NCBI GenBank assembly: GCA_035236585.1
Contig: CP141139.1
Coordinates: forward strand, 21,282,990-21,346,989
Direction: 5' to 3'
From: Warburgia ugandensis
Lineage: Eukaryota; Streptophyta; Magnoliopsida; Canellales; Canellaceae
DNA: 64,000 nucleotides
Shown piece after piece: positions 2,427 to 62,700 of this stretch. The position numbers were made by a program, and so were the translations under genes. The notes beneath the pieces are model-generated. The model saw only the letters and a list, made by a program, of their open reading frames with translations. It was not told the DNA's origin and ran no database searches. Positions within the stretch are counted from its first letter, which is position 1; each line of letters begins with the position of its first letter.

Positions 2427-2513
<87 letters not shown>

Positions 2514-8705: not shown

Positions 8706-8900
8706 TGACACAAGTGCTTTACATCCTCGGTCATTGTGTGGTGGATCATCGAACATATTGAAAAGTTTAGATGCTGTGTTTGGGATTTTGAAGGACTCGA
8801 AGTGATTTGACTTTGTACCTTGGGACTTTTGAAGCCCTTGGACATTGTGCCGAGGATCATTCAATGCCTTGAAAATTTTAGACCTCGTGTTTGGAAACAC
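8706..8900 (+). repeat. Tandem repeat, short plus block (duplicated switch block)
   Basis: A plus-oriented stretch of just over one monomer, containing 'cattgtgtggtggatcatcg' and 'gacctcgtgtttggaaacac'. A near copy lies at about 12090-12280, and both copies end at the same strand-switch junction. Shared rare words show that the two blocks derive from one duplication rather than from independent monomers. Confidence 0.8.
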
Positions 8901-11640: not shown

Positions 11641-12280
11641 GTTGGGTGCATTGGGGCTTTCTAGCATTTAAATTGCCCTATCATTGTTTTAAGGATCATT
11701 CAATGGCTAGACGTTGTGTTTAGGACTTCCATTTACATATAATGTGTATACAGTGTGACTTGGGATTTTCCAGTGCTTAACGTGCTTGGACGTTGTGCGA
11801 ACATTCATCCAATGGCTTGAGAAGGTTCGATGTTGTGCCTGGAAACTTCCCATGACATGAAGTGATTTGAGATTGGACCTGACTTCCAAGGACAAGTAAG
11901 GTTTTCGCATTGTGTCTTTTGACCTGCCATCGCTTAAAGTGCACAGACATGGTGCCAAAGGATTCTCCAAGGACGTGCAAAGTGTAGACATTGAGCCTAG
12001 AAATTCCTAGGACTAGAAGTGATTTGACATTGTGCCTAGGACCTCCATGGACATGTAATGGTTTGAAATTATACCGTAGGGCTTTCCAAGTGCTTTACAT
12101 GCTTGGTCATTGTGTGGTGGATCATCGAACATATTGAAAAGTTTAGATGCTGTGTTTGGGAATTTTGAAGGACTCCAAGTCATTTGACTTTGTACCTTAG
12201 GAATTTTGAAGCTCTCGAGCATTGTGCCAAGGATCATTCAATGGCCTGAAAAATTTAGACCTCGTGTTTAGAAACACTGT
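11641..12280 (+). repeat. Tandem repeat, plus block
   Basis: About four plus-oriented monomers. The last, at about 12090-12280, is the duplicate of 8716-8900. Confidence 0.8.
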
Positions 12281-12533
12281 GCACAAGTTCAAATCACTTT
12301 GGATCATGGGATGTTCCCAAACACAAAGTCTTAACTTTTCAGGCTGTTAAATGGTCCTTTCGGCACAATGTCCAAGCTCTTAAAGTACTACGAAGTCCCA
12401 CAGTTCAATGTCAAGACATATTACAAGTCTTTGGAAGTCCCTAGACTATAGGTCAAATAACTTCAAGTCCTGGGATGTTCCCAAATACAATGTCTAAACT
12501 TTTCTAGCTATTGGATGATCCTTTTGCTCAATG
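12281..12533 (-). repeat. Tandem repeat, terminal inverted block
   Basis: About 1.5 minus-oriented monomers, ending where LTR sequence of gypsy copy 1 begins ('ggacaatactggtgtctaat', identical to 54846-54865 in copy 2). The break in copy 1's LTR therefore coincides with the array edge. Confidence 0.8.
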
Positions 12534-20700: not shown

Positions 20701-20903
20701 ATAAATCCGCTTCAAGTTTAACTTAATACAATACTTCTTTCAATGTTCCCGCGTTCTCATTAGTTGTAATCATTTATGATTCTCTATTATTCTTATCATA
20801 CTATTGTTATTGTAATAACTATTAGGCTTTTTCCAAGAGTTTATGCACACAATCCAAGTTAGGAACTTGGACTATTAGAAGCATTCCGCATGAATGTATC
20901 TTC
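17747..20903 (-). pseudogene. Gypsy copy 1, decayed gag-pol internal region
   Basis: Minus-strand reading recovers a Ty3/gypsy pol in pieces. Near 19090-19160 there is a relict of the region before RT (pattern KAPYxMAP-ELKELKxQL). At about 18780-18960 lies 'DIDLRFGYHRL', matching the RT KIDLRSGYHQ block. At about 18430-18560 'LLSLVNCYRWSIEFSKIA' matches SFLGLxGYYRRFIxGFSKIA. Near 19330-19390 'ILGMD' matches the end of the protease. Stops and frameshifts are dense, so nothing is translatable. No primer-binding site is recognisable beside the 5' LTR. The same lesions occur in copy 2 (57411-60607). Confidence 0.8.
18032..18245. repeat. 46 bp minisatellite inside the dead pol (about 5 units)
   Basis: The word 'caatcatatgccaatca' or a close variant starts at about 18032, 18079, 18124, 18170 and 18216, giving a 46 bp period with 'agagcataccagctcaataa' between. 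The equivalent in copy 2 has six units. Confidence 0.9.
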
Positions 20904-23900: not shown

Positions 23901-24068
23901 ATCGATGCATATGTTCCAAATTAGATAATCCCAAGTCCAAATTTTGAGTTTACAATGAGGTTATTTTCATAAAAATCACATTTTCCATGAAATTAAATTC
24001 TCATTTTTCTCTGCGTCAAATGTATAATTTAATGTGTGAAAAATGACCCAAAATTGAGGGTCATTTCA
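20904..24068 (-). mobile_element. Gypsy copy 1, 5' LTR
   Basis: The minus strand starts TGAAATGACCC (from TGTAACGACCC as at 57396) at 24068 and ends near 20904 beside the decayed internal region. It carries 5'-LTR-specific differences such as 'gaactctaaaaggctcag' and 'cagaaaaaagaagt' that are shared with 60608-62090 and not with the 3' LTRs. It is followed directly by GTCGA (24069-24073) and LINE sequence. Confidence 0.85.
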
Positions 24069-24290
24069 GTCGATTCAAGTCAAAATCTCTTAAAGGGCAA
24101 TGGGAAGGCTCATAAGGACATGGATAGAAATAGTGAGAAAAGATTTAAAAACTCTTGGACTTAATGAAACAATGACCCTTGATAGAGCTAAATAGAGGAA
24201 TAAGATTCATGTAGCCAACCCCTAATGGGGATAAGGCTTTGATTATGATAATATAATGATAAAGATAAAAAAATGTGCAAGGGGTATTTT
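24069..24290 (+). mobile_element. RTE-like LINE, 3'-terminal fragment (right flank of gypsy copy 1)
   Basis: Begins with the 5 bp duplication GTCGA. Plus-strand translation gives relics of the C-terminal tail seen in plant RTE-type LINEs ('DLKTLGLNETMTLDRA', 'IHVANP') and ends in the AT-rich 'gattatgataatataatgat' tail. Joined to the LINE fragment ending at 53527, the reading frame continues (ALVRS-x-SIQVKIS), so both pieces were once one LINE interrupted by the gypsy element. Confidence 0.8.
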
Positions 24291-38825: not shown

Positions 38826-39620
38826 GGCAAAGTTTGAAGATGTTCACAGGCTTACTGATGGCCAAGTGAAACATTCACCAGAAGTATTTTATGCAGGTTC
38901 ACTGTGGAAGGTAAAAGCATTGATCTAAAATGTTTCATTCAAGCAGTTTCCTGTACGTGTTATCAGAAATTGACAGGTAAACAAATTTGTGACCACAACC
39001 TTTTTCGGTTGAGGACCATGCAACTTACCAACAGGCTAGGAAACTCATGCTCGAAAAAGAAGGCTGAGGCGAAAGATTAGGACACAGAACATCATTGTAT
39101 GTGGTCAACAATACAGATATGATAAAGTTGGTTTCTGTCTGCAGGTAAGTGTTCAGGCTTTTAATGATGAAGATCCCCAAGGACGCTGCACCCTTGCTAA
39201 TGTTTCCATGTTTGAGAGACTCATGTTTGTGAACATGTTAGCCCTTGTTGTGAAGATAAAAAAAAATGGAAAATATGTGATTCGTAAGCATTTTGTATTT
39301 CATGATTGTTTCTCCATCGTCATAAGGCAGAGAGATGATGGATCCCGTTAGACAGGTCAAGCCTTTTCCTAATAAAACAAAAGAGTATCTATGCACCACT
39401 CTTCCCTAGAGGATATTTCTTTACTGTTTTTTTATGCAGTTTCATATATATGTAGATTCTAGGGAGAAGGTGACAGCTCGATACCAGGTAAGCCTTTTAG
39501 AGCTGATGTTTCTTTTTTGTTTTCTTTCACTTGTAATGTCCAAGGGAGACAGAACTAGACTGAAACAAAGATTGAATATCTTCTTTCCTTGTCAATCCAG
39601 TTGATTTGTCCATCGAAAAG
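38826..39620 (+). pseudogene. Degraded host gene, 3' exons before the retroelement
   Basis: Exon 38826-38910 ('EDVHRLTDGQVKHSPEVFY') has acceptor ATCAG and donor GTAAAA. Exon 39145-39196 ('VSVQAFNDEDPQGR') has acceptor CTGCAG, but the donor position reads CTAATG where GTAATG would be expected. Exon 39304-39355 ('LFLHRHKAE...DPVRQ') has an acceptor reading TTTCAT in place of TTTCAG and a 2 bp insertion (GAGAGATG) that breaks the frame. Exon 39440-39487 ('YVDSREKVTARYQ') has intact sites. The last exon opens at 39601 ('LICPSK') and is cut at 39620 by the retroelement. One frameshift and two lost splice sites mean the gene was decaying irrespective of the insertion. Confidence 0.75.
39616..39620. 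repeat. Target-site duplication AAAAG (left)
   Basis: Matches AAAAG at 47822-47826. Removing the element and one copy restores an open exon. Confidence 0.93.
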
Positions 39621-39867
39621 TGTAACACCCTGGGGTTCCAACAGTCACAATATTGTCCGTTTTGGGGTGCCCATACACCCATCACAGTTTTGTTCTCCCC
39701 AAGTTTTCTAGGGAAAACGCGTTGTGACCATTAGAGTTCCTCAAACTCTTATAAACAGCCCAGTTTCCTCTCCCCAGGCAATGTGGGACTAACTCTCTAT
39801 CTCTCACCCCAGCCTAGAAGCCTGCCAGCCTTCTCTTGGCCTGCCGTCATCGGTTCAGGGCTTCACA
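39621..39867 (-). repeat. 3' LTR-B (247 bp)
   Basis: The minus strand starts TGTGAAGCCC and ends GGGTGTTACA. It has 'GTTAGTCCCACATTGCC' followed by TTTATAAG (39748-39755), a promoter arrangement common in plant TRIM LTRs. Confidence 0.92.
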
Positions 39868-39880
39868 TCTTCCCCCCTTA
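39868..39880 (-). other. Polypurine tract adjoining 3' LTR-B
   Basis: The minus strand reads TAAGGGGGGAAGA directly before TGTGAAGCCC, the expected plus-strand primer site of the short-LTR element. Confidence 0.85.
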
Positions 39881-39956
39881 GGGAACACGTGTCCCTGCGT
39901 GATAGCCACGACAAGGGGCCCGCGTGCAGCTAGCCATCACACCACGAGGGGAACTA
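39881..39956 (-). other. TRIM-like internal spacer
   Basis: 76 bp of non-coding GC-rich sequence between the second PBS and the polypurine tract. With the short LTRs it makes up a complete TRIM-sized element (LTR, PBS, tiny interior, PPT, LTR). Confidence 0.6.
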
Positions 39957-39968
39957 GCTCTAATACCA
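39957..39968 (-). other. Second primer-binding site
   Basis: The minus strand TGGTATTAGAGC differs by one transition from the initiator-Met tRNA primer site TGGTATCAGAGC at 47561-47572. It sits two bases from the end of LTR-A, the same spacing as at the 5' LTR-B. Confidence 0.8.
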
Positions 39969-39970
39969 AT

Positions 39971-42499
39971 TGTGGCAACCCGGGTTTTAGAAAAGGATTT
40001 TTGAAATAAATTTTGAAAATTTTATCTCTCTTGCAGGATTTTGTTTTTTAAAAACATTTGGAATACAAAATACATATTTATTTTTCTCAATTCCCCCTTC
40101 AACCCGGTGTCACATTAAAACCTTCACATATAATAGAAGAATAAAACATACCACTACAGGATCCCCATGGTCACAGCCCAAACAATAACTAATTAGGTTC
40201 AAATTCAGGTTCAATGTTGCCTGTCTTATTACGTTCATCCTCAAGTGTTCATTATTTCAAAATGAAAGATAACAAATAAAATGTCTAACTAACTACTTAT
40301 ACATACTTCATTCCTCCTTATTCTCCTTATTTAAATTCTCCTAGCCAAGCGTTCAGTCCTCTTACACTTTCCCTGAAATATTTTGTAGGGGTGAGTACAA
40401 CGACTCAATAGGAAAATGCCTAAACCACGACAAAAGTGTTGGCATAAATTAAGTAGTGCAAATAATTAAATGTTCAATCATAATTGTGATATGAATATTA
40501 TACAACATACATGCCTTTATAAAAGTCTAGTGTTTACAATAATTTCTGATATATCCTTCAAATATTATACAAACACCCTCATTAGGACTTATCAAATAAT
40601 GACATATCAAAATCTGTTATATCACTGTGTGGTAGCGTCCTACCACAAACCCATCTGGGCAATGGTTAAATATCCTTAAGGATGATCGACATGTTTGTCT
40701 ATGTCTGATAACTATATGGTATACTATGCACATAGAGGACTCACATCCAACTATGTTCGGCCATGGATACCACACGGGCTACACCAGTCCTCATGGGGGC
40801 ATTGGATTACAAGAGAGCAATCTCCCCATGATACAATACTCTCTACAATAGGCCCTTATTTTTGGGTAGGTGTCAACTTTCAGAAGTCAGCGGCCAACTG
40901 ATCTTCCTAGCATAGCAACCAAAGGGGTCTTAAAATTTGCCCCAGGCTGGGCTCAGCTCTTATGAGTCGCCTGATTTTTTATTAAGTCCTTCCACATTTC
41001 TTAATACATCTTATGAAAATATTCATACTTTTCAATTCACCAGCAATAGGCATAAATCATCTACTACCTGATTCTTGTAAAATATTGGAATATCTGGTGC
41101 TCAATATTTTCAAACTCGAATATTATACCATACCAGGTATCAGGAAGAAGACAATTATTTTGTTTCAAATATCATGACCATCAATTGGTAATTATCTAGT
41201 TGTAATAGAACTTACATAAATAAATTATTGGTGGATTGCCCTTCTAAATTCACATAATCTATAATGACTATAAGTAGCAAACTCATTATCCAAATAGCTA
41301 GCGTGACCCTTCATGGGCTGGTGGCTGAGCACCATGCCCAAGTATATGGCTCCCTACTTATTGTCCATGTGCCATCTGCCAAGTGCATGATCCAAACATC
41401 AGCTATAAGATGCGTGGTTGTTGATGGTTTAGATGTCACACTAGGCGTTAGGTGCTAGCCACCTCATCTTTAGTGTTATGTTCCACGCAAGTTAGCAAAT
41501 ATAAGAGTCATACAAACACATCCACATTCTAAGTGAAAAGTTTGTGTGACCCATGTTAAGTTTCATGCATGCATGCAAATTAAAATTCATGCAGGACATA
41601 AAATACTAAATGATAGATAGATAACTATATTATATAATCCATGTGCCTAAGATGCTTCCCATGCAAAACTATCTTATGCACTAGGTGTTGTACGCCTCAA
41701 CCAATTGCATATTATATTTTATGTTGTTCAAGCAAAGACAACAAAGTAGCGATATGATGGTCAAGATGCAAGATTACAACATGCCAATACCATGCAGTCA
41801 TAGAAACAAGTCATGCGCATGCATGAAACATAAAAGTTGTATCACCCATCAATGGTTCATGTAGAAATAAGAGAGGAAGGTATTAGATTATTTTTATTTC
41901 ATTTTTATTTATTTTCCCATCATGGGTGTGTGCTTATTCCAAAGAAGACCATGTATATCTAAGAACTCAAAACGAGATTTCCTTTCTAAACATAGAAAAA
42001 AATCAGCTCATTCAAAAGTCATGCATAGGTCCATAGTTCATGCATGTATATCTAAGAACTCAAAACGAGAATTTCTATTTAAACATAGAAGAAAATCAGC
42101 TCATTCAAGAGTCATGCATAGGTCCATAGTAAAACCGTAGTTCATACATGCTTTGTTCAGAGTAAAACAAAATCTGCATGCTTATGTTTTCAACACAACA
42201 AAATCAAAACATAAGATGCACAAAATATCATCAGTCAAATGTTCAAATCAAACCATGTGAAAATCTCAATCAAACACATGTTATTCACAGGCCAAGTCAT
42301 GCACCTATCTCGACGAGTTCGATTATATACCAAAAGGAAAATATGGGATCAAATGTGTAGTGACAAATCATCATAAAAAGAACCAATTGATTTAGATTAT
42401 TTCCTATTCCCCTACCTCGTAGACGAGATCTTTTTCTATAGTCTTCTTTTCTGGAATGTAAAATGGATAGCGCAACCTAATTCTCCTCTGCTTCTTCCC

Positions 42500-42576
<77 letters not shown>

Positions 42577-43056
42577 TTTTCTCTCCCTTTCTGTCTTTTC
42601 TTTTCTCTCTCTCTTCCTCTTTCTTTCCCTTTATCTCTCTTTACCTTTCTCTTTGTGTTTCACGCATTCCCTTCTTCTTCTCCCCCTCTTATCCCAATTT
42701 CATTTGACTTCTTCTTTCCTATCCTATCTCCTATCTATCCAATCTAATTTGTTAAGTATCCTATCTTTTCCTAATTCTCTAGATTTATTCTTATCTTCTT
42801 ATCAATTTTATCCCATATCTGATTCTAGTTAGATGTTTGTCTTCATCCTTTCTCAACTAACTAGAATTATCTGTGTTCATTGCACCTAGACACTTCCTGG
42901 CTTTGGGTAGGGAATTTTTCCAAAAAGTTATCTTTGGAGACTTGAACTTTAGTTCTAGAGTTTTCCCCATTCATTCTCTAGCCATTAGGGCATTTAACTA
43001 TTTTGTTGTCAATTCCATACAAGAAATATATATATTATAAAATGCACATTATTACA
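39971..43056 (-). mobile_element. Single internal LTR-A, 3.1 kb
   Basis: The minus strand starts TGTAATAATGTGC right after the gag-pol polypurine tract and ends CCCGGGTTGCCACA right before the second PBS. Large LTRs of this size fit the Tekay chromovirus group. Much of its middle (about 40150-40810) is related to 62091-62700. The stretch at 40865-40920 ('aggtgtcaactttcagaagt', 'cctagcatagcaacc') echoes a block present in the other gypsy LTRs. It contains a long TC tract. Confidence 0.8.
42505..42570. repeat. (TC)n microsatellite in LTR-A
   Basis: About 33 CT dinucleotides followed by 150 bp of polypyrimidine. It reads as GA-rich on the element's sense strand. Confidence 0.97.
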
Positions 43057-43070
43057 ATCTTCCCTACTTC
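43057..43070 (-). other. Polypurine tract adjoining LTR-A
   Basis: The minus strand GAAGTAGGGAAGAT lies directly before TGTAATAATG and follows the 'GACGAAATTTTTGGAAG' sequence usual at the end of Tekay/Del coding regions. Confidence 0.85.
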
Positions 43071-43089
43071 CAAAAATTTCGTCCTTGAA

Positions 43090-43587
43090 ATTTGAAGGTA
43101 GTACAGTGAACAACTCTAGAAACCTCTGTCTCATGTCACTTTTCACTTCCTAGGTAGCTTCTCCAATTGTATGATGATGCCATAAGACTTTGACTAATGG
43201 GATAGTCTTGTTTCTCAAAGTCTTCTCCTTCCGGTCTAGGATCTGTACTGGCTTTGTCTCAAAAGTCAGGTCAGATTGTAGTTTAATTGGCACTTGCTCC
43301 AACACATGGGTAGGATTGGGAACATATTTCCTGAGCATTGACACATGAAATACATTATGTACCTCTAATGGCTGTGGTGAAAGTGCTAGTCGATATGCCA
43401 CCTATCCAATTCTTTCCAGAATTTCAAATGGTTCTATGAATCTAGGTCTCAGTTTGCCCTTAATTCCAAACCTCGTCACTCCCTTAGTTGGTGAGACCTT
43501 CAAGAAAATGTGATGATCTCTAACTATAAATTCAAGATCTCTGTACCTCCTATCCGCATAGCTCTTTTGCCTACTATGGGCAGCCAA
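43090..43587 (-). pseudogene. Chromovirus integrase C-terminus and chromodomain
   Basis: Minus-strand frames 43587-43402 ('SYADRRYRDLEF', 'FGIKGKLRPRFIEPFEIL') and 43401-43150 ('QPLEVHNVFHVSMLRKYVP', 'PVQILDRKEKTLRNKTIPLV') are separated by one in-frame TAG. The second is the chromodomain of Tekay-type chromoviruses, thought to steer integration to heterochromatin. Another TAG replaces the Trp of the final ATWE. The tail 'LPSNFKDEIF' runs to the polypurine tract. Confidence 0.85.
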
Positions 43588-44520
43588 TAACTGCTTCTGG
43601 ATAATCTGTACCTTCTCTGCACAGTTCTCAATTAATTCTAACTTTAGAAATTGTCGTTCGCCAATATCGCTCCAACAAGTTGGTGTTCAACAAGGTCTCC
43701 CATATAATGCCTCATACGGCGCCATGCCAATGCTAGAGTGGTGACTGTTATTATAAGTAAACTCTATTAAGGAAAGATGTTCATCCCAGTGACCTTTCCA
43801 CTCTAAGGTACAAGCCCTGAGCATATCTTCAAGTGTCTGAATAGTTTGCTCAGACTGTCCATCAGTCTGCAGGTGAACAGTTGTACTGAATCTTTGCGAG
43901 GTACCAAGTCCTTCCTATACACTTTGCCAAAAATGTGATGTGAATCTGCTATCCCTATCAGATATGATGGTCAAAGGCACTCCGTGTAAACTTACAATCT
44001 CCATAATATATAACTTTGCCAAACTCTCCAGTGATTGTCTTTGTCGAATAGGGAGGAAGTGCATGGATTTAGTAAGTCTATCTACTATCACCCAAATCAT
44101 GTTGTGTCTACTGGAGGTTCTTGATAATCCCACTACAAAGTCCATCGTAACGTGACCCCACTTCCATTTTGGGAGTTCTAAAGTCTGTAATAGTCCTCCT
44201 AGTCTCTGATGCTCTGCCTTCACCCTTTGACAAGTCAAACACTTTTCCACACACTCACCAATGTTACTTTTCATGCCCTGCCACCAGAAATTTCTTTTCA
44301 AATCTTGATACATTTTTGTACCCCCAGGGTGAATCGTAAACTTTGAGTTATGTGCCTCTTGTAATATTTCCTGTCTTAGCTCGGCTACTGCTGGCACTAC
44401 AAGTCTACCCTGAAAGCGTACTCCTTCATCATTAACCATTGAGAATCCAGTCTTATTATGCATGCCCTGAGTTTCTTCACACTCCCTTTGAGCTCGCAAT
44501 ATACGGTCTGTGAAGGCTGA
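43588..44520 (-). pseudogene. Integrase
   Basis: Within the longest pol frame (44778-43915) are the HHCC zinc site ('[10 protein letters not shown]...CLTCQ'), the first catalytic Asp in '[10 protein letters not shown]' and the second in '[12 protein letters not shown]'. A frameshift and stop at about 43915 follow. In the next frame 'TDGQSEQTIQTLEDMLRAC' keeps the catalytic Glu. All DDE residues therefore survive, but split across frames. Confidence 0.88.
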
Positions 44521-45269
44521 TCTTATAGTGACATTTGCTATCCTTCCTTTCATTTTCCTAGTAAGAACATTAGCTACGACATTGGCCCTACCAGGATGGT
44601 ACTGGATGGTAAAGTCATAGTCTTTTAGGTATTCCATCCAACATCGTTGCCTCATATTGAGATCACTCTGTGAGAATAAGTACTTAAGGCTTTTATGATC
44701 TGTAAAGACTTCAAACCTTTCGCCATACAAATAATGTCTCCAAATCTTTAAAGGGAAGACCACAACAGCCAACTCCAAATCATGCGTGGGCTAGTTTACT
44801 TCATGAATCTTCAACTATCTAGAGGCATAAGTAATCACTTTTCCATGTTGCATTAACATGCATCAAGTCCCTTACCCGAGGCATCACTATATACCATGAA
44901 TCCTCCACTACCGATTGGTAAGGTCAGAATAGGCGCGGTGGTGAGTCTCCTTTTCAACTCTAGGAAACTCCTTTCACATTCATCAGTCCATTCAAATCTT
45001 TTCTCCTTCCTGGTCAGTTGGGTCATGGGTTGTGCTATGCGAGAAAATCCCTCAATAAATCTCCTGTAATACCCTACTGACCCGAGAAAGCTAAGGATCT
45101 TCGATACAGTCTTTGGCCTTTCCCAATTAGTGATTGCTTCTATCTTCTTAGGATCAACTACAATACCGTTTGCAAAGATAACATGCTTGAGAAACTGTAC
45201 TTGGTCAAGCCAAAATTCACACTTTGAGAATTTTGCATATAACTTATGAGTCTGGAGTGTGCTCAACAC
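44521..45269 (-). pseudogene. RT thumb and RNase H
   Basis: Frame 45269-44853 has 'KLYAKFSKCEFWLDQV', 'FLGSVGYYRRFIEGFSRIA' and 'FMVYSDASGKGL', the start of RNase H. A frameshift near 44853 is followed by two stops near 44800. Frame 44778 onward continues RNase H with '[19 protein letters not shown]' and '[16 protein letters not shown]' (usual ADALSRK). Confidence 0.88.
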
Positions 45270-45960
45270 GATTTTTAAATGCTCTCAGTGTTCATCTCTA
45301 CTACTGGAGTATACTAGAATATCATCAATGAATACAATGACAAACCTGTCAAGATATTCTTGAAATACCCAATTCATCAAATCCATAAAAGCTGCAAGTG
45401 CATTTATTAGTCCAAAAGGCATAACCAGGAATTCGTAGTGGCCATACCTAGTTCTGAATGCTGTCTTCGAGATATCCTTGTCCTTTATCCTCAGCTGATG
45501 ATAACTAGATCTCAGATCTATCTTTGAAAATACTTTGGCAGATTGTAACTAGTCGAAGAGATCATCAATGTGTGGTAATGGATATTTGTTCTTAACTGTG
45601 ACCCATTCAACAATCAATAGTCCATGCACAGTCTCATAGATCCATCTTTCTTTTTGACAAATAACACAGGGGCTCCCCATGGTGAGACACTTGGTCAAAT
45701 AAATCCTTGGTCCATCAACTCTTGTAATTGCACCTTTAAGTCCTTTAGTTCAGCTGGTGCCATGCGGTAAGGTGCCTTAGAGATTGGAGTTGTTCTTGGT
45801 AGCAATTCGATAGAAAACTCCAACTCTCTTTTTAGTGGTATCCCAAGCAATTCCTCTAGATAAACATCTTGGAATTCCCGTACCACTTCTATTTCTTGAA
45901 TTTGTGGCCATGAATCCGCCTAAGTGACTACATTGGCTAAATAGGCTGGGCATCCTCCAA
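45270..45960 (-). pseudogene. Reverse transcriptase
   Basis: The pre-RT block '[17 protein letters not shown]' at about 45790-45730 ends at a TGA that replaces the CGA of FIRPS. Downstream the catalytic block '[15 protein letters not shown]' (FIDD) lies at about 45352-45303. Several stops and frameshifts lie between. Confidence 0.85.
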
Positions 45961-45973
45961 CTATAAGTCATCA

Positions 45974-46390
45974 TGCTTGCACTGCTGATATAATGGTCAT
46001 TCTCGAGACATTTAGCATTCCCTGAAAGGTAATGATTTCCCCTCTAGGGTTGCTGAGTGTGACTCTTTTCTTCCCACAGTCAACTATTGCCTCATGGTTT
46101 GCTAGCCAATCCATGCCTAAGATGACATCGAAGTCTGACATGTTCAATAGTATTAAGTTTGCACAAAGTTCTTGTTCTGATATATGTATCAGTACTTCTT
46201 GTAAGAATTCATGTGCTAGAACTAGTTCTCCTACTGGGGTGCTGACTTCTAAACAAATACCTTATTTGTATTTTGTACATTTCATGCATGATGCGAAGTC
46301 ATATGATATAAATGAGTGTGTGGAACCAGGATCAATTAAGACACAAGCAAATCTATCACAAATTTGAAGGATACCTTCAACTATGGAATT
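45974..46390 (-). pseudogene. Aspartic protease
   Basis: The minus strand reads 'ACVLIDPGSTHSFI' at about 46352-46310 and 'FDVILGMDWLANHEAIVDCG' at about 46135-46075. The catalytic triplet, normally D-T/S-G, reads D-P-G here, so the enzyme would be dead even without the TAA at about 46262. Confidence 0.82.
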
Positions 46391-46402
46391 TGAAGCACGT
46401 GC

Positions 46403-46939
46403 CTACTCAGTGGTCAATGCAAAGACTCTTCCCTGACTCCTCTGAACCTGTCCTAGATTTGGTCCTTCATCCCTTCTTTTCTTTGAGCAATCTTTCAGAA
46501 AGTGACCTTTATCACCACAGATGAAGCATCGTCGTTCACGGATATAGCAAGGCTTGCCGGGGTGGTACTTATGGCATGTTGAGCATGTGGTATCTTCCTT
46601 CTCCCTTCTTCTAAAGTTTCCCAGTGCTGGTTTCTGCGGCCGAGCAAACTTCGTTGGGGCAGTATGCCTCTTCCCTTTCCAACTTGGCTTTTGTCCACCA
46701 TATCTTTCACTGTCTCTATTGGAAGCTTTGTACTCCCGTTCCACAATGGCTGCCAACTCCACAGCCTTAGAAAATGAGGAAGGCTGAGCTATCAATATCT
46801 TGCTCTTGACGTGAAAGTTTAATCCTCTAACAAATTTTTGTGTTGCTCTCAAGTCTGTGGGGCATACTTCTGGAGCAAAACGCCTTAACTTAACAAATTT
46901 GGTTTCATACTGTTCCACTGTCATGGAACCTTGCACCAA
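46403..46939 (-). pseudogene. Gag C-terminal half with zinc knuckle
   Basis: 178 open codons. 'MTVEQYETKFVKLRRFAP' and 'FVRGLNFHVKSKI' belong to the retrotransposon gag domain. 'CFICGDKGHFLKDC' is an intact CX2CX4HX4C knuckle. The frame upstream is closed by a TAG near 46960. Confidence 0.88.
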
Positions 46940-47463
46940 TCCTTCGAATTCTTGTTCCTTCTATTCCTTAGCATGTGGTGGAAAGTACTTGTCAGTGAAG
47001 ACTATTTTGAAGTCTTCCCACTCAACTACTTCCATATCACTAAAGTAGGTCCTCTCAGCTCTTGGCCACCAGTGTAGGGCCTCTCCGGTCAGCACGAAGG
47101 TAGCGACTGGTACTCGCCTGTCCTCTAGTGCGTTCATAGCTTTGAAAATCGTCTCTATCTCATAAAGCTAAGTCTCGGTTGCTTCTGGTCCATCTTCTCC
47201 TAAAAACTTTAGAGCTATCTTTTTGAATCACTCAAGCAACGTGTCACCTTTTGGCGCTAATTCCTCATCTCCAACCATTCCTTGAGTTCTCCTCTTTGCC
47301 CTGGGGTCTCCAGTCTTTGTTTCATTCGCTGTAAAAGGAGCTCTATAACATCCTCGACCGTATCATGTTGGGCTTTAGTATTTTCTGGGGCTTCAGAGGA
47401 GGAGGACTCAACAACGTTTGCAGCTCTACGTCTCTTAGGTGCCATCTGAATGTCAAACATCAC
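46940..47463 (-). pseudogene. Gag N-terminal half
   Basis: Starts 'MAPKRRRAANVVESSSSEA', typical of Tekay-like gag, about 150 bp after the PBS. The first frame (47463-47257) ends in a stop. Reading on in pieces gives 'NALEDRRVPVATFVLTGEAL' and 'HWW' with TAG codons at about 47170 and 46960, both explicable as CAG to TAG. Confidence 0.8.
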
Positions 47464-47560
47464 AATCCTAGTAAGTTTCTACTTCTACTTAGCTAATGTA
47501 GACTTATTATTCTATTATTATTTATTATTTTATTATTTGGCTGTGAGCAGAGTGAATCGT

Positions 47561-47572
47561 GCTCTGATACCA
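47561..47572 (-). other. Primer-binding site
   Basis: The minus strand TGGTATCAGAGC is complementary to the 3' end of initiator methionine tRNA, two bases after the 5' LTR-B. Confidence 0.93.
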
Positions 47573-47574
47573 AT

Positions 47575-47821
47575 CGTAACACCCTAGGGTTCCAATAATC
47601 ACAATATTGTCCGCTTTAGGGCACCCATACACCCCTCACAGTTTTGTTCTCCCCATGTTTCCTAGGGAAAACACGTTGTAACCATTAGAGTTCCCCAAAC
47701 TGTTATAAACAGCCTAGTTTCCTCTCCCCAGGCAATGTGGGACTAACTCTCTGTCCCTCACCCCAGCCTAGAAGCCTGCCAGCTTTCTCTTGGCCCACCC
47801 TCATCGGCCTAGGGCTTCACA
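47575..47821 (-). repeat. 5' LTR-B (247 bp)
   Basis: Same length as the 3' copy. The minus strand starts TGTGAAGCCC and ends GGGTGTTACG (final CA mutated). The TATA-like TTTATAAC lies at about 47702-47709. Confidence 0.92.
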
Positions 47822-47826
47822 AAAAG
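47822..47826. repeat. Target-site duplication AAAAG (right)
   Basis: Second copy of the duplicated exon bases. Confidence 0.93.
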
Positions 47827-53527: not shown

Positions 53528-56500
53528 TATGATACCCCTAGTTTTTGACAACAATATAAAAATAATTTGTAAAAATAGTCAAGATCCATGTTTCAGAAAC
53601 ATTGATTTTTTAAAGTGACCTAAAACAAAACTCTAATAAAAGCATTTATTTCAAATTCCTGTGAGTCATATAACCACAAAACCACAGATTTAACAGTGAA
53701 ATGAAATCTCATTTCTACCAAAAATCCAACAGTCTCCTCTATATTTTAGACTGTTGCACAAAACACGTGCAATACAAAATCACTTGATAAACACAACACA
53801 AGACATGACATATGGGAGACTCAGTCTCCATGCCCATCCATATGACTTAATTACTATTTTGTATGAAAATGTATACTCCAACAATAGATAAGAAAATCAA
53901 GTCATGATAAATTACTCGGGGTCTATCCATACAACCATCACATCCAACATAATTTCATATCCTCACATCTAGGTTATATTGTAATTATAATAACATACAA
54001 TTCATAAACAATAGCCAAAGTGAGGTCCTAAACAAACCTTGTTATCTCTGAAATGTCCTCAATACTCCACTAGGAACTATCATCACTTTTGTCTGCTTTA
54101 TAAGCGCGTCAACCTATAGCAACTCTCTGTACCTGAGGCATTGCAAACAAACTAATACCTTAGCAAGCTATGCTTGTGTAAGTGATCACATTCAATAAGA
54201 AAGTACAGTGAAATCATGTGGTATGAAATATTAATGTCAAGGCAAATCTCATAAGGTAAAACATGTACAAGACATGTCAAATCCTCATACGTCCATAATG
54301 AATAACACATGAAAATCATAAGTCTGAACAATTCGATTTCAAGTCAAACCATCATGACATTCAAGGCATGAGCAAGGCATGGATGTTCATCCATCAAAAG
54401 CAATAAGAATACATGTCTAAATCATAATATTAATGCATGTCATGATAAACAAGGCACTATACATAATCAAGCCCTAAGAGTGTTCCATGACACTCAAAAA
54501 CCAGTAATGAGTACTCATACCAATCCCTGGGTCCGTCCCGTGTAGCCTAAATTAGGCCCCCGAAGTTACTCACGGCTTAAGCCCCACTTACCCCAATTCA
54601 CCCAACATATAAATACTACATGAGCATACGAATAAGAGTGTGAGCTAATATGCTACAATGGAAACTACTCCAGGGTCTCAACCATTGTCGCTCCTCATTG
54701 GTACTAGAATGGGAGATTCCTGTCTCACATGGAAGAAGACAGACTCGTAGTGTGGACCACCCCGATCCCACCCCTACGGACATATCTCAGTCTCGCATGG
54801 GAGAATACAGGCTCGTAGTGTGGATTACCCATGGTACCACCCTTGTGGACAATACTGGTGTCTAATCATAACCATCATAAAGTTAAAGGACAGGTGGCTA
54901 ATCCTACAACCCTCCCAGCATAGTACCCATCGGGCAGAAGCACCCATCATGAATGATAAACAATGAGTAAAGAATCAAAATCCGTTTATAATCATTCTCA
55001 ATGAAATCAAATCGAGAGAATAACTCAATATATCAACATCATGTATTGAAAACCAGTGTATAATATCCTCAATAATCCAAATTGATGTAACATAAAATAC
55101 TAAGAAGCAGTTTTAAATCATATACAAAAGGAGTAGCAAACATGTTGACAATACATGCTAAAAAGTAATCTCATGAAAACATAATAGGGCATAAAGTCCA
55201 TACTTCAAGTTCTCAAATAATGCATTATCATTTAAGAAATCATGAAAAGATCTCAAATGTAATCACCTACCTCAGATCAAGTGCCACTCGTTTATACCTC
55301 TCAATCAGTCAGACCCAACTCCAATGTGGTCCGCCATAATTTCATTCACCTGGATACATTTCACATCTAGTCATACTCAAAATCCAATTTATCCAACTTG
55401 GATTCTCAAATACACGACATTACGCTTTTGTATTCGTTACATTGCATTCAAGACAATCCAATGATTCTCAACCTAGAAATCTCAAGGTAAGGCCCGTCCT
55501 CATTGGCTGATAATTCAAATCATACTTAATCGGGCCTACTCATAGTCTTTAGTTCTTCTTCTTAATAACATCAATGCATATTTAAAGCTATTAGGCTTAG
55601 ATCATATCAATTTCAGGTAATTATCATTTAAATCAATTAATCAGGCATTACTATATGAATATCATGCTCAATTGTATCTAATTATAATCACACCAATCCA
55701 TCAAATGACTAAGACAGTAATCTTACCTTGAACAAGTCAATCTGAATAACCTCCAGCTGTCTACTTGTTCGGATCATCCACCAATCATCTCGATTGTGCC
55801 CAATCATCAAATATCCACACTGATCTCATCAAATCCTCACCTGATTGCCCTAGATCACATAACAACTTAGTAATTCTAGTCAATTAATCCAATTAAGAAT
55901 TCTAAATGGTTTGAATCATCAAATTGGATCCAATTTCATACCTGGATCTTTAGTTGATCTCAGGCATTGATCATGGTTAGCTAAATCATCTCCATAAATG
56001 CTTTAGACCCCATATTTTTGTATAAATCCTTGGTCTACACTTTATGAAGATCACTACAAACTACTTGGATCAGAAAAATGAAGTCAGATTATCACGGATC
56101 AGATGATCTGACCTTTGATCAAATTTTGGTCAATTCAAAAGTTAAATCTTCCCTGATCAAAGAATGGGAAAATGGGTATCATTCCACACATTACAAGGAT
56201 TGTGAGGGTACTCTTGGATCTTCTAGATTCCTCCTAGATTGGTTAGAATCACGCTTCAAAGTTCATGGGGTAAAAGGGTCACTGGGTCAACTTATACCCT
56301 TCCAAAATGAGTTAGGGTGAGTTAACTCAGCAAGTCAACTCAACCCTAACTCACCAGAATCAATGGAGGTAGGGGAAAACTGGCTGGCTCAGGCAATTGT
56401 GTTGTCTGGCTGCACTGGAGGTAGGGGCCACTGATTGATCACTACCTGAAACCCACATAAAGGAGATTAGAAGGGGAGTTTTCAGGTGTGTGGTCGGCCT

Positions 56501-57396
56501 ATGGGGGCTCAGCCCATGCACTACTAGGGGTCCGATCGGGGAGAAGAAAGAGAGGGAAAGGGAAATGGAACGCTAGGAAGGTTAATCAGGTCTTTGCCCG
56601 TCATCAGCGAACAAAGGGGGAAAAAGGTTGGTCTTCGGCAATGGCCATTGGTCTAGGTGCTCGCCGGTGGCCTACTCATCCCCTGGGGAAAGCTCAGTTC
56701 ACCGGTTTTCTGGTCACGCCAATGGAAACCCTCTAGGTTTTGATCTACCCCATCGGAGGAGAAAAATGAAACAGGGAAAAACCCCATGCGTGGCCTGAAG
56801 GGGAATCCGATCTAAAGTTCTTCGCCATTGCCAGACAGCTAGAGGAGAGGGAAGATCACTGAGAAAAGAGGGGTTTATGAGGAGGGTAACAGCCACCGGG
56901 AAAACCAACGAGGAAGAGAACTGTGCCAGAGTTGGGGGAAAGGGGAGATCAGATGGGGGAGAGGACGGCTTTTGGGTTGTTGGGTTTTTTGGCAACCCAC
57001 CTCTTCTTTTCTATTTCCGTAGTGCAATGCGTGGGAGGAAGGGTAGGCAATGTGTGGCTACTGGCAGTCCACGTGTCGTGCCCATTCCACACATGGCGCT
57101 GCACTGCTTTCCACAAAAGGACAAAACAAGGGGGTGCCATTATCAATTTTGACCCCCCAAATTTGTAAAACTTTTGAGTTTTTCCACCTCAATCTGCATT
57201 TCACACAAAATTAGTGTCATTGCAATCGTATCAACACTTACATTCCAAATTCCATAATCCAAAGTCCAAATTTTCAGTTTACGAGGAGGCTATTTCCATA
57301 AAATCACTTTTTCCACGAAATTAAATTCTCATTTTTCTTTGCATCAAATTTATGATTTAATGTATGAAAAATGACCCAAAATTGAGGGTCGTTACA
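53528..57396 (-). mobile_element. Gypsy copy 2, 3' LTR (3.87 kb)
   Basis: The minus strand starts TGTAACGACCC at 57396 next to the polypurine tract and ends at 53528 next to GTCGA. It is the most complete LTR of the family in the window and shows the uninterrupted form of the site occupied by the solo LTR in copy 1 (about 54938). Confidence 0.9.
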
Positions 57397-57410
57397 TTCT
57401 TCCCTCCTTA
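57397..57410 (-). other. Polypurine tract of gypsy copy 2
   Basis: The minus strand TAAGGAGGGAAGAA lies directly before TGTAACGACC, preceded by 'TTTTGGGGACAAAATTCC'. It is deleted in copy 1. Confidence 0.85.
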
Positions 57411-60400
57411 TAGGAATTTTGTCCCCAAAATTCTTTTCATGTTATTCTTAAAAAATTTGAAAGCATCTCATATCACAGAATCTATAAATTATACCAAAAA
57501 TTTCCAAAGTCAATGCTAATAACAATTTCATGTCCTGTCATCCCCTCAAATAGCAACTCATATGCATAAACGAATGTATATTTTAAACCACCCCAGATCA
57601 AGTAGCTGATTTTATTATTAGAATGTGTCATAACCACACATAATATAATTAGCATGAATCACACTCTCATCCAAGAGTTAATCATTTGTTTACAACTTGC
57701 ATAAGTGAATCACCATATCAACAAAATTTAAAGTACCACAACTCATATATAGTCAATTTATGCCAAATCTATTCCAGCGCATAGTACCTACCTCATCATT
57801 AGGCATTGTATATCAATCACACCATATCAAATCAATTCTTGAAGAAGCAATACATGCCAATCAAATTGGAGCATACTTGCTCATCAACAGGTAATCCATG
57901 CCCAAACAAAATCAAAGCATACTAGCTTAGTAACAGGCAATCATATGCCAATCAAAATTAGAGCCCACCAGCTCAGTAACAAGCAATCATATGCCAATCT
58001 AAATTAGAGCATACCAGCTTAGTAACATGCAATTATATGCCAATCAGAATCAGAGCATACCAGCACAATAACAGGAAATCACATGCCAATCAAAATCAGA
58101 GCATACTAGATCAATGACAAGCAATCACATGCCAATCAGAATCAAAGCATACTAACTCCATAACAGGCAATAATATGCCAATCAATACCAGATCCAGAGC
58201 ATGATCATACTATCAGTACTTAGAAGCCTACAAATGACTCTCACACTTGCCCTCATCGGCTACTCATAAGTATATGCCATAATCTAGAACCAAATTACAC
58301 GTAAGAAAAATTCTTTCATTCTAACATACTCTGTCACACTTCTCACCTTCATGAGAAATCAGGCTCATATACGTAATATAAACCATCTTTATGTCATTGC
58401 TATCTTGGAGAACTCAATACTCCAGCGATAACAGTTTACCAAACTAAGGAGACTAACGACCTTAGTCCCAATTTGGATAGTCCCAGTTCATCATAATCTC
58501 AATATACAATCTCTCCATCAATAGAGATATCTCGGTCAAGAAAATTCATCTTTTTTGACCATAATACATACTCACATACATTTACTGCAAAAAATGAGTC
58601 CTTCAAATACTTAGAATAATGCACAAGGATTTCTTATGCTCCTTCCAAGTCACAGAATATACAAAAACATCATTTGCTACATAATCATGACTCATCTCAG
58701 TAACCCTTAGAAATTTAGCCCATCATATACATACATACTGTCAATGTACAAATTTCATCAATTGGTATCACTCAAAACTTGTAACAATCATAACAAGTTC
58801 TAAAAGTTGTATTAAAGACATCTTAGTCACAATGCTCAGCTGGTGATAACCAAACCTCAAATCAATATCCACTAATACCATGCATCATCCAACATTGATC
58901 ATATAGATCATTAATACACTTTAGAGAATATCAATTCTCCACTGTGGTGCTATCAAACAATCATTAATCTGTGCATAGCAATGAGGATCTCTCTCTTCTC
59001 AAAAGGAGGATTAATGCACCCATTGCAGACCCACCAAGTATGATCACCCTTGTCAAAAACTACTATAGTTGGAACCCTTCAGCTCAACAGGGGCCATCCA
59101 GTATGGCACCTTAGAAAGTGACACTATGTTTGATGCCAAAATCAATATCAATATGAAAAATCAATCTATTGCAGTGTAAAATCTTGAAGCCTCATCAAGA
59201 ACTTTATGAATCCTCGCACACTATATGTGTGCTTAATTTGTGGCCACTCTTAGTCATCCACTGTAACACTAATGCTAGAGATTTGGCATCTCAAGAAAGT
59301 AAAATAAATAGAATCCATCCCAAGGATGGTATTATGATTAGTCCTTTCAAGTAAGATTAGTTCAACATCCATCCTCTCATTCATCACTAGCATCATAACA
59401 TCCAACTCAGAGGATGTCATTGATACAAGTGTATTCATCAAGGTGCCAGTGATTAAAGTACAAAAATGACTAAATCTTAGATTAAGGAGGATTCTAAAAT
59501 AGTTACCAGCAATTAGAACATATTTTTTGCCATCTAATTCAAGGCCTGTACTTGCCTTCAAGTAATGGTAAAATTTATCACTGATAATGCGGGGGCATGT
59601 CTTCCCTGTTCCTAATGTCAGTCAGTCTGACCCATTATCCAATGGGACAATCTTTAAAGGAATATCTTGAGTCTTCACAGTCAAAACATTTAAAGGATTG
59701 CCATTGTGATGGCGGCTACTGATGCTATTACCACTATTGCAATGGTCTATAACTTTAGGACATAATAGTACAGATGTCTGACCTTTCAACTAGTATACCT
59801 TCTCTCATCTATATCCCAACACTGCCTGATCAAATGACATTGGTTCAATGGCCTCTACAGTTGTGTCAATGAAAGGCCTCTTGCCCTTATGAAGCTAACT
59901 CAAACTACCCATGTCCGATTCTGTAATCAGCCTTGGTCTTAAGAGAATCCCTCTTCACATGGAGGTTATGTATGCGACCTCGCTACCAGTGTAGAATGCG
60001 ACAAAGTCACCTGATCCCTCAATATAGGTGTTAACATATCACAATCTATCCTCAGTGTCCTTCTTGGTGGAGTTAGGGCAAGTCTCTTCAACTAAGTATA
60101 CTGGTTCAATACCATTGAATCGTCTAATTTTTTAGCTTTAAGTTGAAACTCTCTTAGTTTTCCAAAAATACCAATTATCACAGGCCTTCTCAAGGGCCTT
60201 CCAAATAAAAGTCTCAACTATAGAGGAACACATCTTCCCAAATAACCATCCTTAGTATCCTTGCGATTATGTTTTCAGTGTCCTCACGTCCACCAGTTCA
60301 TTTCCTTCAACAAATGAATTACTTCATGGTCATATCCATCAAATCATTTAAAATTATCAATCTCACACCCAATGTAATTGATCTTTCACAATGACTTTCT

Positions 60401-60607
60401 TAGCCATTGGAGACCACATTATCATTACTATTTAATAACTATACTTATAAAAAATCCTCAAAAAATTCATAAGCATTCACTTCTCATTGATGATTGGCTA
60501 TCAATATTTTTATATGCAGAAGAACCCATAAATCTTTATCTCATAGTTCAGGTAATTCATCCATAAAATCATTAGGATCTTATTTCATCAAATTTTCAAT
60601 GATTCTC
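57411..60607 (-). pseudogene. Gypsy copy 2, decayed gag-pol internal region
   Basis: Runs parallel to 17747-20690 of copy 1 with the same relics and the same stop codons (for example the 'DIDLR.GYH' block with downstream stops near 58800). One 103-codon frame (59561-59250) holds the protease-end relic 'HNTILGMDSIYF'. It stops at 60607 in 'gattctcacc', where copy 1 continues for about 1.8 kb that is deleted here. Confidence 0.8.
57938..58190. repeat. 46 bp minisatellite in copy 2 (about 6 units)
   Basis: Unit starts at about 57938, 57983, 58029, 58075, 58121 and 58167. One unit more than copy 1. Confidence 0.9.
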
Positions 60608-62090
60608 ACCAAATCACATAGCAACTTAGTAATTCTAGTCAATTAATTTAATTAAGAACTCTAAAAGGCTCAGATCATCAAATTGGATCTAATTTCATAC
60701 CTAGATCTTTAGTTGCTCTCAGTTGTTGATTATGATTGACTATCTTAGCTCCATAAATGCTTTAGACCCTACATTTTTGTATAGGTCCTTGATCTACACT
60801 TCATGAGGATCACTACAGACTACTTGGATCAGAAAAAAGAAGTCAGATTATGACGGATTAGGCGATTTGACCTCCGATCAAATTTTGGTCAATTTGAAAG
60901 TTAGATCTTCCTTGATCGAAGATGAGAAGATGGGTATTATTTCTCGCATTACAAGGATTGCAAGGGTACTTTCAGATCTCTGAGATTCCTCCTGGGTTGG
61001 TCAAAATCACGCTTCAAAGTTCAAGGGGTAAAAAGGGTCACTGGGTCAACTCAGACCCTTCCAAAAAGAGTCAGGGGTAAGTTGACTCAGTGAGCCAACT
61101 CAACCCTAACTTGCCAGAATCAATGGAGGTAGGGGAAGACTGACATGGCTGGCTAGCTAAGGTAATCACGCATGTCGGCTGCACTAGTGAAGACAATGAT
61201 CCGGGAGGAGAGGGTGAAGGTTGGTAGTGGCCGCTGCTTGGTCGTTGCCTAAAACCCACCTAAAGGAGATTGGAAGGGGGGTTTCAAGTGCGTGGCCAGC
61301 CTATGGGTGGCTAGCTGATGCACTACAAGGGGTCCGATAGGGGAGAAGAAAGAGAGGGAAAGGAAAATGGAACGTTAGGAAGGTCGATCAGGTCTTTGTC
61401 CGTCATCAAGGAACAGAGGGGGAAAAAGGTTGGTGACCGGCAGTGGCCATTGGTCCAGGTGCTTGCTGGTGGCCTACTCATTGCCCGAGGAAAGCTCAGT
61501 GCGCTGGTTTGCTGGTTGCACCAATGGAAACCCGCTAGGTTTCGATCTACCCCATCAGAGGAGAAAAAGGAAATGGGGAAAAACCCCATGCATGGCCAAA
61601 CGGGGAACCTAATCCAAGTTCTTTGCCATCGCTAGAGAGCAAGAGGGGAGGGGAAGTTGCCAAGAAAAGAGGGGTTTTCGAGGAGGGTAACAGCCACTGG
61701 GAAAACCAACGGGGAAGGGAACTGTGCCAGAGTTGGGGGAAAGGGGAGATCAAATGGGGGAGAGGAGGGCTTTTGGGTTGTCAGGTTTTCCAGCAACCCC
61801 TCTCTTCTTTCCCATTTTAGTAGTGCAATGTGTGGGAGGGGCAGGCAACGTGTGGCTACTGGTAGTCTACGTGTCTCGCCCATTCCGCACATGGTGCTGC
61901 ACTGCTTTCCATAAAACGACAAAACAGGGGGGGTGCCATCATCAATTCCCCCCCCACCCACCACCCCTGCCTCCAAATTTGTAAAACTTTTGGGTTTTTA
62001 CACCTCGATCTACATTTCACGCAAAATTAATGTTGTTACAATCGTATCGATGCATACTTTCCAAATTTGATAATCCCAAGTCCAAATTTT
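60608..62090 (-). mobile_element. Gypsy copy 2, 5' LTR remnant
   Basis: Matches 22460-23945 of the copy 1 5' LTR, including variants absent from the 3' LTRs ('gaactctaaaaggctcag', 'cagaaaaaagaagt', 'ttagctccataaatg'). It is cut internally by a deletion at 60607/60608 and truncated at 62090 within 'ccaagtccaaattttga', about 125 bp before the LTR end. Confidence 0.85.
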
Positions 62091-62700
62091 GACAAGGTTC
62101 CTTGGTCATAGCCCAAACAATGAATAGCTAAACTTAAACTTAATGTCTATGGTCACCTATTTTGTTCCATTTTAAATTCCAAAGAAATTGTTCACAATCC
62201 AAACACATGATTAAAGAATCCATTACATTATTTTGTTTATAATATTCTTTAATTCCTCCTCAACTCTTCTTGAGCCAAGTCTGTCTAGTCCTATATTGCT
62301 TCACCCAAAATGGTTTGAAGGGGCAAGTATGATGACTTAGTAGGTATATACCTAAACCAACTGTTTGAAATCCATTACTTCAATGTAAGTGTGAAATAAA
62401 AAATACAAACAACCATGCTTTTATGAATTTGGTGTTCCAACTCAATTCAAATTTATCTCAAATCATACATGTGAAAGTTCATTGGAACTTCTGTTAATTA
62501 GTGGCATATCACAACCTATCATATGACTGAGCATTAGCATCCTACAACATTCCCAACAAGTAAGTCAATATCCTCGAGGATAACCGAGATGTTAGTCCAT
62601 GCCCATAAAGGACCCACATCCAATTATGTTTGGGTGTGAATATTGCACAGGCAACACCGGTCCTCAAGTGCACGGGTCTACTATAGTAAGACAAGGCAAA
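62091..62700 (-). mobile_element. Fragment related to LTR-A
   Basis: 'ggtcatagcccaaacaatga' near 62105, 'gggcaagtatgatgacttag' near 62320 and 'acccacatccaattatgttt' near 62610 follow the same order as 40170, 40390 and 40740 in LTR-A. Orientation is taken from LTR-A. Both ends are ragged. Confidence 0.65.

Follow-up and report, generated by a model that had tools for sequence, protein, structure and literature searches.

Which autonomous elements move terminal-repeat retrotransposons in miniature (TRIMs) is largely open, and for 278 of 289 TRIM subfamilies Gao et al. (2016; PMC4717578) identified no coding relative. The locus described in this study raises the question of how a coding retrotransposon came to lie within such a TRIM. 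It is situated in a 64-kb stretch of DNA from Warburgia ugandensis (the window; C14:21282990-21346989 of a 1.12 Gb genome in 14 contigs, denoted by C and a number), and it consists of a Ty3/gypsy genome that has one long terminal repeat (LTR) and is joined on either side to the parts of a TRIM at the primer-binding site (PBS). We consider it probable that the RNAs of the TRIM and of the Ty3/gypsy element (chromovirus-type) were reverse-transcribed together and joined at the PBS before a single integration. A chimera joined at the PBS and surrounded by a single target site duplication (TSD) would be a fossil of joint copying and would name the autonomous partner of the TRIM directly.

Results and Discussion

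Architecture of the composite element

The composite occupies positions 39621-47821 on the minus strand of the window and reads, from 5′ to 3′, LTR-B, AT, PBS, leader, gag-pol, polypurine tract (PPT), LTR-A, AT, PBS, 76 bp, PPT, and LTR-B. The 5′ LTR-B of 247 bp (47575-47821) is followed by the spacer AT (47573-47574), which is of the coding-element type, and by the first PBS (TGGTATCAGAGC, 47561-47572), at which LTR-B meets the leader. The leader of the coding element, extending from the PBS to gag (47446-47560), is matched in other copies, and it leads into a decayed gag-pol (43057-47445) with gag, CCHC, protease, reverse transcriptase (RT), RNase H, and integrase, a purine tract (PPT-A, 43057-43070), and LTR-A (39971-43056), the sole long LTR of the Ty3/gypsy coding element, which measures 3,086 bp and has TG and CA at its ends. 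A second spacer AT (39969-39970) and the second PBS (TGGTATTAGAGC, 39957-39968) then form the 3′ junction between LTR-A and the TRIM interior of 76 bp (39881-39956), which is matched in intact TRIMs. The interior is followed by PPT-B of the AAGGGGGGAAGA type (39868-39880), which lies within the interior common to intact TRIMs, and by the 3′ LTR-B of the TRIM (247 bp, 39621-39867), whose family is present elsewhere in the genome. The whole is surrounded by the TSD AAAAG (39616-39620 on the left and 47822-47826 on the right). This layout, with its outer LTRs, TSD, PPTs, single LTR-A, and two PBSs, had been proposed in a sequence-only reading of the window and was borne out when the coordinates were re-checked.

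The two copies of LTR-B differ at 24 of 246 aligned bases (90.2% identity; Kimura two-parameter distance of 0.107), and their last base differs too. At one mismatch or fewer, the PBS word TGGTATCAGAGC occurs at exactly two sites in the 64 kb, namely, the two junctions, each of which lies two bases from an LTR end; 0.23 sites were expected by chance, and two sites were reached in 2 of 100 shuffles. A second copy of either flank of the composite was sought within the window as an empty site, and none was found.

The Pfam matches in the body follow the order gag, CCHC, RVP_2 (aspartic protease), RVT_1, RT_RNaseH, Integrase_H2C2, and a Tf2-1-like SH3 domain, with the rve match falling below its cut-off. 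The order of protease, RT, RNase H, and integrase is that of Ty3/gypsy elements (Metaviridae), and the coding element is a Ty3/gypsy element. The SH3 domain is followed by a putatively chromodomain-like tail, broken by a stop, in which a chromodomain was not confirmed by a model; the label of chromovirus-type (Tekay/Del type) is used here tentatively. The gag-pol frame is broken throughout, with at least three frame changes; three segments, 1415 codons in all and not including the first coding segment, contain 16 in-frame stops. A search of viral contigs with the integrase piece gave no confirmed match.

The two parent families elsewhere in the genome

Each genome search scored the best 40 candidates, and all counts resulting from them are lower bounds. 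The search with LTR-B gave 44 matches from the best 40 of 3808 first-look candidates, and the fetched loci contained 38 distinct LTR-B/interior/LTR-B units of 579-608 bp, with LTRs of ~247 bp and an interior of ~101 bp, some of which sit in tandem arrays with a common LTR. The PBS of these units adjoins the 5′ LTR and the PPT adjoins the 3′ LTR, and the segment corresponding to 39868-39968 is uninterrupted, at an identity of mostly 78-93%. The LTR-pair identity of the 38 units was 0.861-0.951, and that of the window composite was 0.902. A TSD match at five of five bases was observed in 12 of the 38 units, with offsets of up to 3 allowed and array-internal units counted, versus 2.6% of 2000 random pairings. 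Having short LTRs and a length below ~1 kb, which leaves no room for a coding region, the LTR-B family is a TRIM, and the pairs of LTR-B around the 76-bp interior that the sequence-only reading had suggested searching for are thus present.

As for the coding element, two junction searches yielded 13 leader-bearing loci besides the window, and the end of LTR-A stands directly before the PBS in 12 of them, and at 9 of the 12 over 150 bp of LTR-A is arranged as expected; the exception (L076) has another TRIM-like LTR. The leaders of most of these copies are 84-91% identical to that of the window (80% for L059). When a 300-base query running from the last part of the body into LTR-A was used, the boundary was spanned by all 40 scored matches, the window included (best 40 of 1503), and one element on C2 has, by coordinates, LTR-A both before its leader (L054, C2:49217922) and after its body (C2:49213294) in the same orientation. 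LTR-A therefore represents the LTR of the coding element, as it precedes the leader and follows the body in other copies. With LTR-A-flanked copies of the same gag-pol found, both parents exist as separate families, and the earlier description of the locus as a one-LTR Ty3/gypsy genome set in a TRIM at the primer site holds.

The window could be read instead as an ordinary autonomous element of which LTR-B is the true LTR and the 3.1 kb segment is 3′ non-coding DNA, given that the element as a whole is bounded by LTR-B and a TSD. This can hardly be correct, however, as the query consisting of LTR-B, PBS, and leader was fully matched only at the window (1 of the best 40 scored of 1804), L076 joining another LTR type to the leader, and as LTR-A precedes the leader elsewhere and follows the body in 40 of 40 scored matches. 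Autonomous relatives with LTR-B, which the sequence-only reading had itself set against its proposal, were accordingly not seen among the copies scored. Coding copies with LTR-B are rejected for those copies, with a small gap consisting of the rest of the 1804 and 1503 first-look candidates.

Several other arrangements of the coding element were observed. At C1:77726811-77805828 (G000), eight body/LTR-A junctions lie in the same orientation and are separated by seven gaps, of which five measure 7.83-7.90 kb, so that the locus is apparently a tandem array of the coding element with common LTRs; a two-unit case is present on C8 (43070091 and 43077726, 7,635 bp apart). The LTR-A of the window contains an 88-bp direct duplication (41950-42130; 93% identical, with copy starts 93 bp apart). 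At L077 (C2:10119966) and L069 (C4:36426975), the PBS is directly preceded by a fold-back of the 3′ end of LTR-A, made up of an inverted and a direct copy. The fold-back of L077 is followed by an inverted TRIM that lacks its own TSD, and this locus was not counted as a composite. No element parts were found in the sequence fetched for L061 and L092.

Other composites joined at the PBS

Further composites were sought by junction queries. A query consisting of the LTR-A end, PBS, and TRIM interior was fully matched only at the window and C4:31702195 (83%) among the best 40 of 1816, the remaining 38 matches covering the TRIM side or the LTR-A side. A further TRIM LTR type of 216 bp, designated B″, was found joined to the leader on C3 (L076), and a query with this junction was fully or nearly fully matched at C3:69991667 (the query itself), C4:37030337, C13:49256214, and C11:11634967, with partial 5′ junctions also at C5:60806555 and C11:45242793. 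The C3 copy has, 11.4 kb off, the end of LTR-A, PBS, B″ interior, PPT, and LTR-B″ (L093), and the two C3 junctions represent one insertion. At C12:20791230 (L102, L106), the end of LTR-A is followed by CT, PBS, TRIM interior, and a TRIM LTR that is ~70% like the others. Composites of the 3′ type, with LTR-A joined through the PBS to a TRIM interior, were thus observed at the window, C4:31.70M, C3:69.98M, and C12:20.79M, and those of the 5′ type, with a TRIM LTR joined through the PBS to the leader, at the window, C3:69.99M, C4:37.03M, C13:49.26M, and C11:11.63M.

Taken together, a TRIM and the coding family are joined at the PBS in at least seven insertions, namely, the window and six others with another TRIM subfamily, on six contigs (C3, C4 twice, C11, C12, C13, and C14), most of the six others having been read at their ends only. 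The seven involve the TRIM types B, B′, and B″ and probably a fourth type. The sequence-only reading had set out a fork, by which further copies with different TSDs would mean transposition as a unit and a singleton would support recombination in place. It does not work as a fork: the window copy is the sole composite of type B found among the scored candidates, yet PBS composites of other subfamilies are present at six more places. In the gag tree, the four B″ 5′ junctions fall outside the autonomous set, with node supports of 57-63 and, at one node, 95, and they are not resolved as one clade. At C12:20798600-20799800 (L108), ~225 bp upstream of the PBS and leader of the composite match neither the LTR-A nor the TRIM LTR queries, and the spacer AA is TRIM-like.

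Outer ends and TSDs

Both outer ends were in hand for five of the seven composites, and one identical 5-bp TSD was found around the whole in all five (AAAAG, TTTAT, ATTAT, CTGTC, and AAAAT). In four of them (C4:31.70M, C4:37.03M, C11, and C12), both outer ends are 3′ (U5) ends of LTRs. The composite at C4:31.70M starts on the left with an inverted TRIM, the U3 end of which meets the PBS and leader, and continues with a body that has a deletion, LTR-A, PBS, and a tail of TRIM interior, LTR, interior, and LTR, with TTTAT at both outer ends. At C11, an inverted TRIM array precedes a 5′-truncated LTR-B″, the leader, and gag, with the end of LTR-A 7.7 kb on and CTGTC at both outer ends. The composite at C4:37.03M opens with an inverted LTR-B″ end of 26 bp and a direct TRIM array, after which come LTR-B″, the leader, and gag; the end of LTR-A lies 12.9 kb on, and ATTAT is present at both ends. 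At C12, the outer ends are a TRIM LTR and an inverted LTR-A end 11.4 kb away, with AAAAT at both.

TRIMs without a coding body showed a similar arrangement. Among 70 partly overlapping TRIM-LTR loci, 10 head-to-head TRIM rows were found at 9 places, one being the C13 composite (L095), and no tail-to-tail pair was found among the same 70 fetched loci. One shared TSD (CTAAG, ATAAC, GTATA, AAAGG, and AAAGG) surrounds each of the five head-to-head pairs with readable outer ends (L005, L009, L017, L045, and L052, on other chromosomes); L020, L055, L086, and the composite L095, which lack a usable outer end, stand outside this count. A scripted check indicated identical TSDs in 8 of 8 own pairings (four composites and four TRIM pairs) versus 2 of 56 mismatched pairings, both of which stem from two loci with the same AAAGG. 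The TSDs of C12 and of L009, the motif of which occurs twice, were read separately from this check. The single TSD around composites and head-to-head pairs alike indicates that such complexes were assembled before integration. The five pairs often consist of mixed subfamilies. The two members of a pair are separated by a few bases or a truncated U3 end, the TSD lies at the outer U5 ends, and the right LTR end of L045 has two changed bases.

A later DNA rearrangement between neighboring insertions, or an assembly error, could be thought of for the window, as the region is repeat-rich. It is very unlikely, as PBS junctions are present at seven insertions on six contigs, the composites are decayed and mutually divergent, and the TSD is single in 5 of 5 testable cases.

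Probable joining before integration

Given these results, we favor the explanation that a TRIM RNA and an autonomous Ty3/gypsy RNA would have undergone reverse transcription together and that the strand transfer at the PBS, which is where second-strand transfer naturally lands and normally takes place within one element, would have linked the two elements instead, because both use the same primer site. By the simplest path, the TRIM minus strand, ending in the PBS complement, would pair with the PBS of the chromovirus RNA at the tRNA primer position and would then copy LTR-A and the whole body as far as the chromovirus PBS, with closure by the plus-strand strong-stop DNA of the TRIM. The expected product is LTR-B, PBS, gag-pol, PPT, LTR-A, PBS, TRIM interior, PPT, and LTR-B, and its integration in one event would yield the AAAAG duplication. 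The ends of the complementary DNAs (cDNAs) may instead have been linked by annealing or end joining. For the complexes with two outer U5 ends, integrase may pair the U5 ends of two cDNAs, the inner ends of which would then be joined. In vitro, concerted integration is routinely assayed with short donor oligonucleotides (PMC11054761).

Template switching within R, by which Sabot and Schulman (2007) explained their complexes, would result in the same class of product, with an internal LTR and one TSD around the complex (PMC1950507). Such a switch makes a chimeric middle LTR with the U5 of the other element, whereas the middle LTR of the window remains LTR-A through its final base, with the PBS as the junction. 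The 3′ end of LTR-A differs from that of LTR-B, which places the switch at the PBS and not in R, and an R-region switch is therefore extremely improbable here.

More weight should be given to recombination in place, in which a one-LTR DNA, either a circle or a linear cDNA ending in the PBS, would have entered a resident TRIM at the LTR-end/PBS homology by single-strand annealing, alternative end joining, or integrase-independent insertion. This would give the same order of parts and retain the TSD of the resident TRIM, and the coding-element-type spacer at both window junctions is in line with it. Integrase-independent insertion at PBS homology is on record for Tf1 of fission yeast, and host alternative end joining reportedly uses PBS microhomology in fly and mouse for the second-strand transfer step and for the formation of one-LTR circles (reviewed in PMC12786077). 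The two outer U5 ends with one TSD at C4:31.70M, C4:37.03M, C11, and C12, however, could not be supplied by a normal resident TRIM. Age estimates also bear on this point: the tip branches of the two LTR-B copies are 0.043 and 0.047 and that of the body is 0.044 or 0.039 (two trees), and the stop count in the body compares with 7.9 expected over 1462 codons at d = 0.053, the age of LTR-B, being, if anything, above it. The similar tip branches and the stop density indicate that the body is at least as old as the TRIM ends, which agrees with joint insertion and makes a late recombination with a resident TRIM less likely. Thus, of the two routes offered in the sequence-only reading, joining before integration is favored by the single TSD in all five composites with both ends and by the odd outer ends of four, and recombination in place, being less favored, appears rather unlikely.

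Several observations weigh against joining by strand transfer before integration. The motif at the LTR/PBS boundary was located in 30 of the 38 TRIM units, and the dinucleotide between LTR and PBS is AA in 29 of these; among 11 coding copies it is AT in 6 and CT in 5 (one of the 11 being the composite L076). Strand transfer predicts AA at the 5′ junction, and the window has AT at both junctions; the 5′ dinucleotide is CT at C3, C4:37.03M, and C13, and it is TRIM-like at C11 only. Heteroduplex repair could be the source of the non-TRIM dinucleotide, and cut-and-join at the LTR end could explain it as well. The 3′ junction at C3, with CACACAAG before the PBS, fits no simple scheme. The two LTR-B″ copies at C3 have no matching TSD around them (ACAAT versus GTGAC), and the 5′ LTR there meets an inverted start of LTR-A, the far left end of which was sought (L107) and not found. 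That C4:37.03M, C11, and C12 are each one complex is deduced from spacing, orientation, and TSD, with their ends only being read, and the 12.9 kb at C4:37.03M exceeds the expected length. In the LTR tree, the two LTR-B copies of the window are not sisters, and each ranks 32nd or 37th of 77 by distance from its partner (TRIM median of 14.5), although this is a weak test because only 10 of 39 pairs are sisters and the family is too star-like. Finally, the co-packaging of the two RNAs is something we infer, together with the order of strand transfers and the mobilization of the TRIM by this chromovirus.

A wider proposal is that TRIM and chromovirus cDNAs of this plant share a particle and an intasome, that the PBS is a recurrent joining point from which hybrid insertions result, that integrase can use the U5 ends of two cDNAs, with head-to-head or hybrid complexes inside one TSD as the outcome, that chimeras identify the partner of a TRIM, and that elements such as OsajLTRA10 of rice may be captures. 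We put it forward tentatively, its chance of being right as a whole being somewhat below even.

Relation to known systems

The template-switching complexes known from Triticeae, rice, and maize (Sabot and Schulman, 2007; PMC1950507) are alike in having an internal LTR, highly similar outer LTRs, and one TSD, and in being formed in reverse transcription; the window shows an internal LTR, a TSD around the whole, and outer LTRs that are 90% identical (decayed). They differ in that their parents belong to the same family and the switch occurs in R, whereas the partners joined here, at the PBS, are a TRIM and a coding element whose LTRs are unrelated.

In rice, the TRIM OsajRetroS10 is accompanied by the 8.5 kb OsajLTRA10, in which the breakpoint lies between two copies of a 25-bp segment that ends in TGGTATCAGAGCC (Gao et al, 2016; PMC4717578). 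OsajLTRA10 is likewise a large coding element with TRIM LTRs and interior, and its PBS geometry, compared by the duplicated segment, is as in the window; it differs in being a Ty1-copia element with three complete copies, and the authors regard it as the progenitor, with the TRIM derived from it by deletion. Tandem arrays of TRIMs and Cassandra (PMC4717578, PMC7215508) show the same LTR-interior-LTR-interior-LTR order but, as described there, consist of TRIM units only, whereas at C4:31.70M an array of this kind forms the tail of a coding element. For maize, an array made up of two TRIMs in inverted orientation, with a TSD, has already been published (Gao et al, 2016, legend to Fig 2; PMC4717578). 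Tandem LTR-retrotransposons of rice (PMC11899658) are single-insertion tandems with common internal LTRs, for which one-LTR circles are discussed as intermediates, but they are described as formed within one family and not by a TRIM and a coding element. In the autonomous/non-autonomous pair Cereba/Quinta (PMC11302176), the partners were inferred from a common PBS and LTR ends, that is, by sequence likeness, whereas a physical chimera documents the meeting here. Among the records listed in the open-access literature searched, no title or abstract deals with the fusion of a TRIM and an autonomous element at the PBS inside a single TSD.

If the proposal is true, chimeras would identify the autonomous partner of a TRIM, here a Ty3/gypsy element, without LTR homology. 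OsajLTRA10 and other coding elements bounded by TRIM LTRs may then have originated by capture instead of having been the progenitors of TRIMs. The chimeras also suggest a route by which a TRIM may gain a coding body. A duplicated PBS, an internal LTR, and one TSD could serve as a cheap genome-wide test for any plant assembly.

Further observations in the window

An LTR-A-like relic lies outside any composite at 62100-62700, of which 62379-62666 is 66-75% identical to 40473-40793. Positions 1-12500 contain degenerate repeats spaced ~159-160 bp, the second part being inverted relative to the first. Two copies of another repeat element, possibly a tandem LTR element, are present at 15324-24071 and 53528-62092, with pieces that are 80-91% identical and permuted differently.

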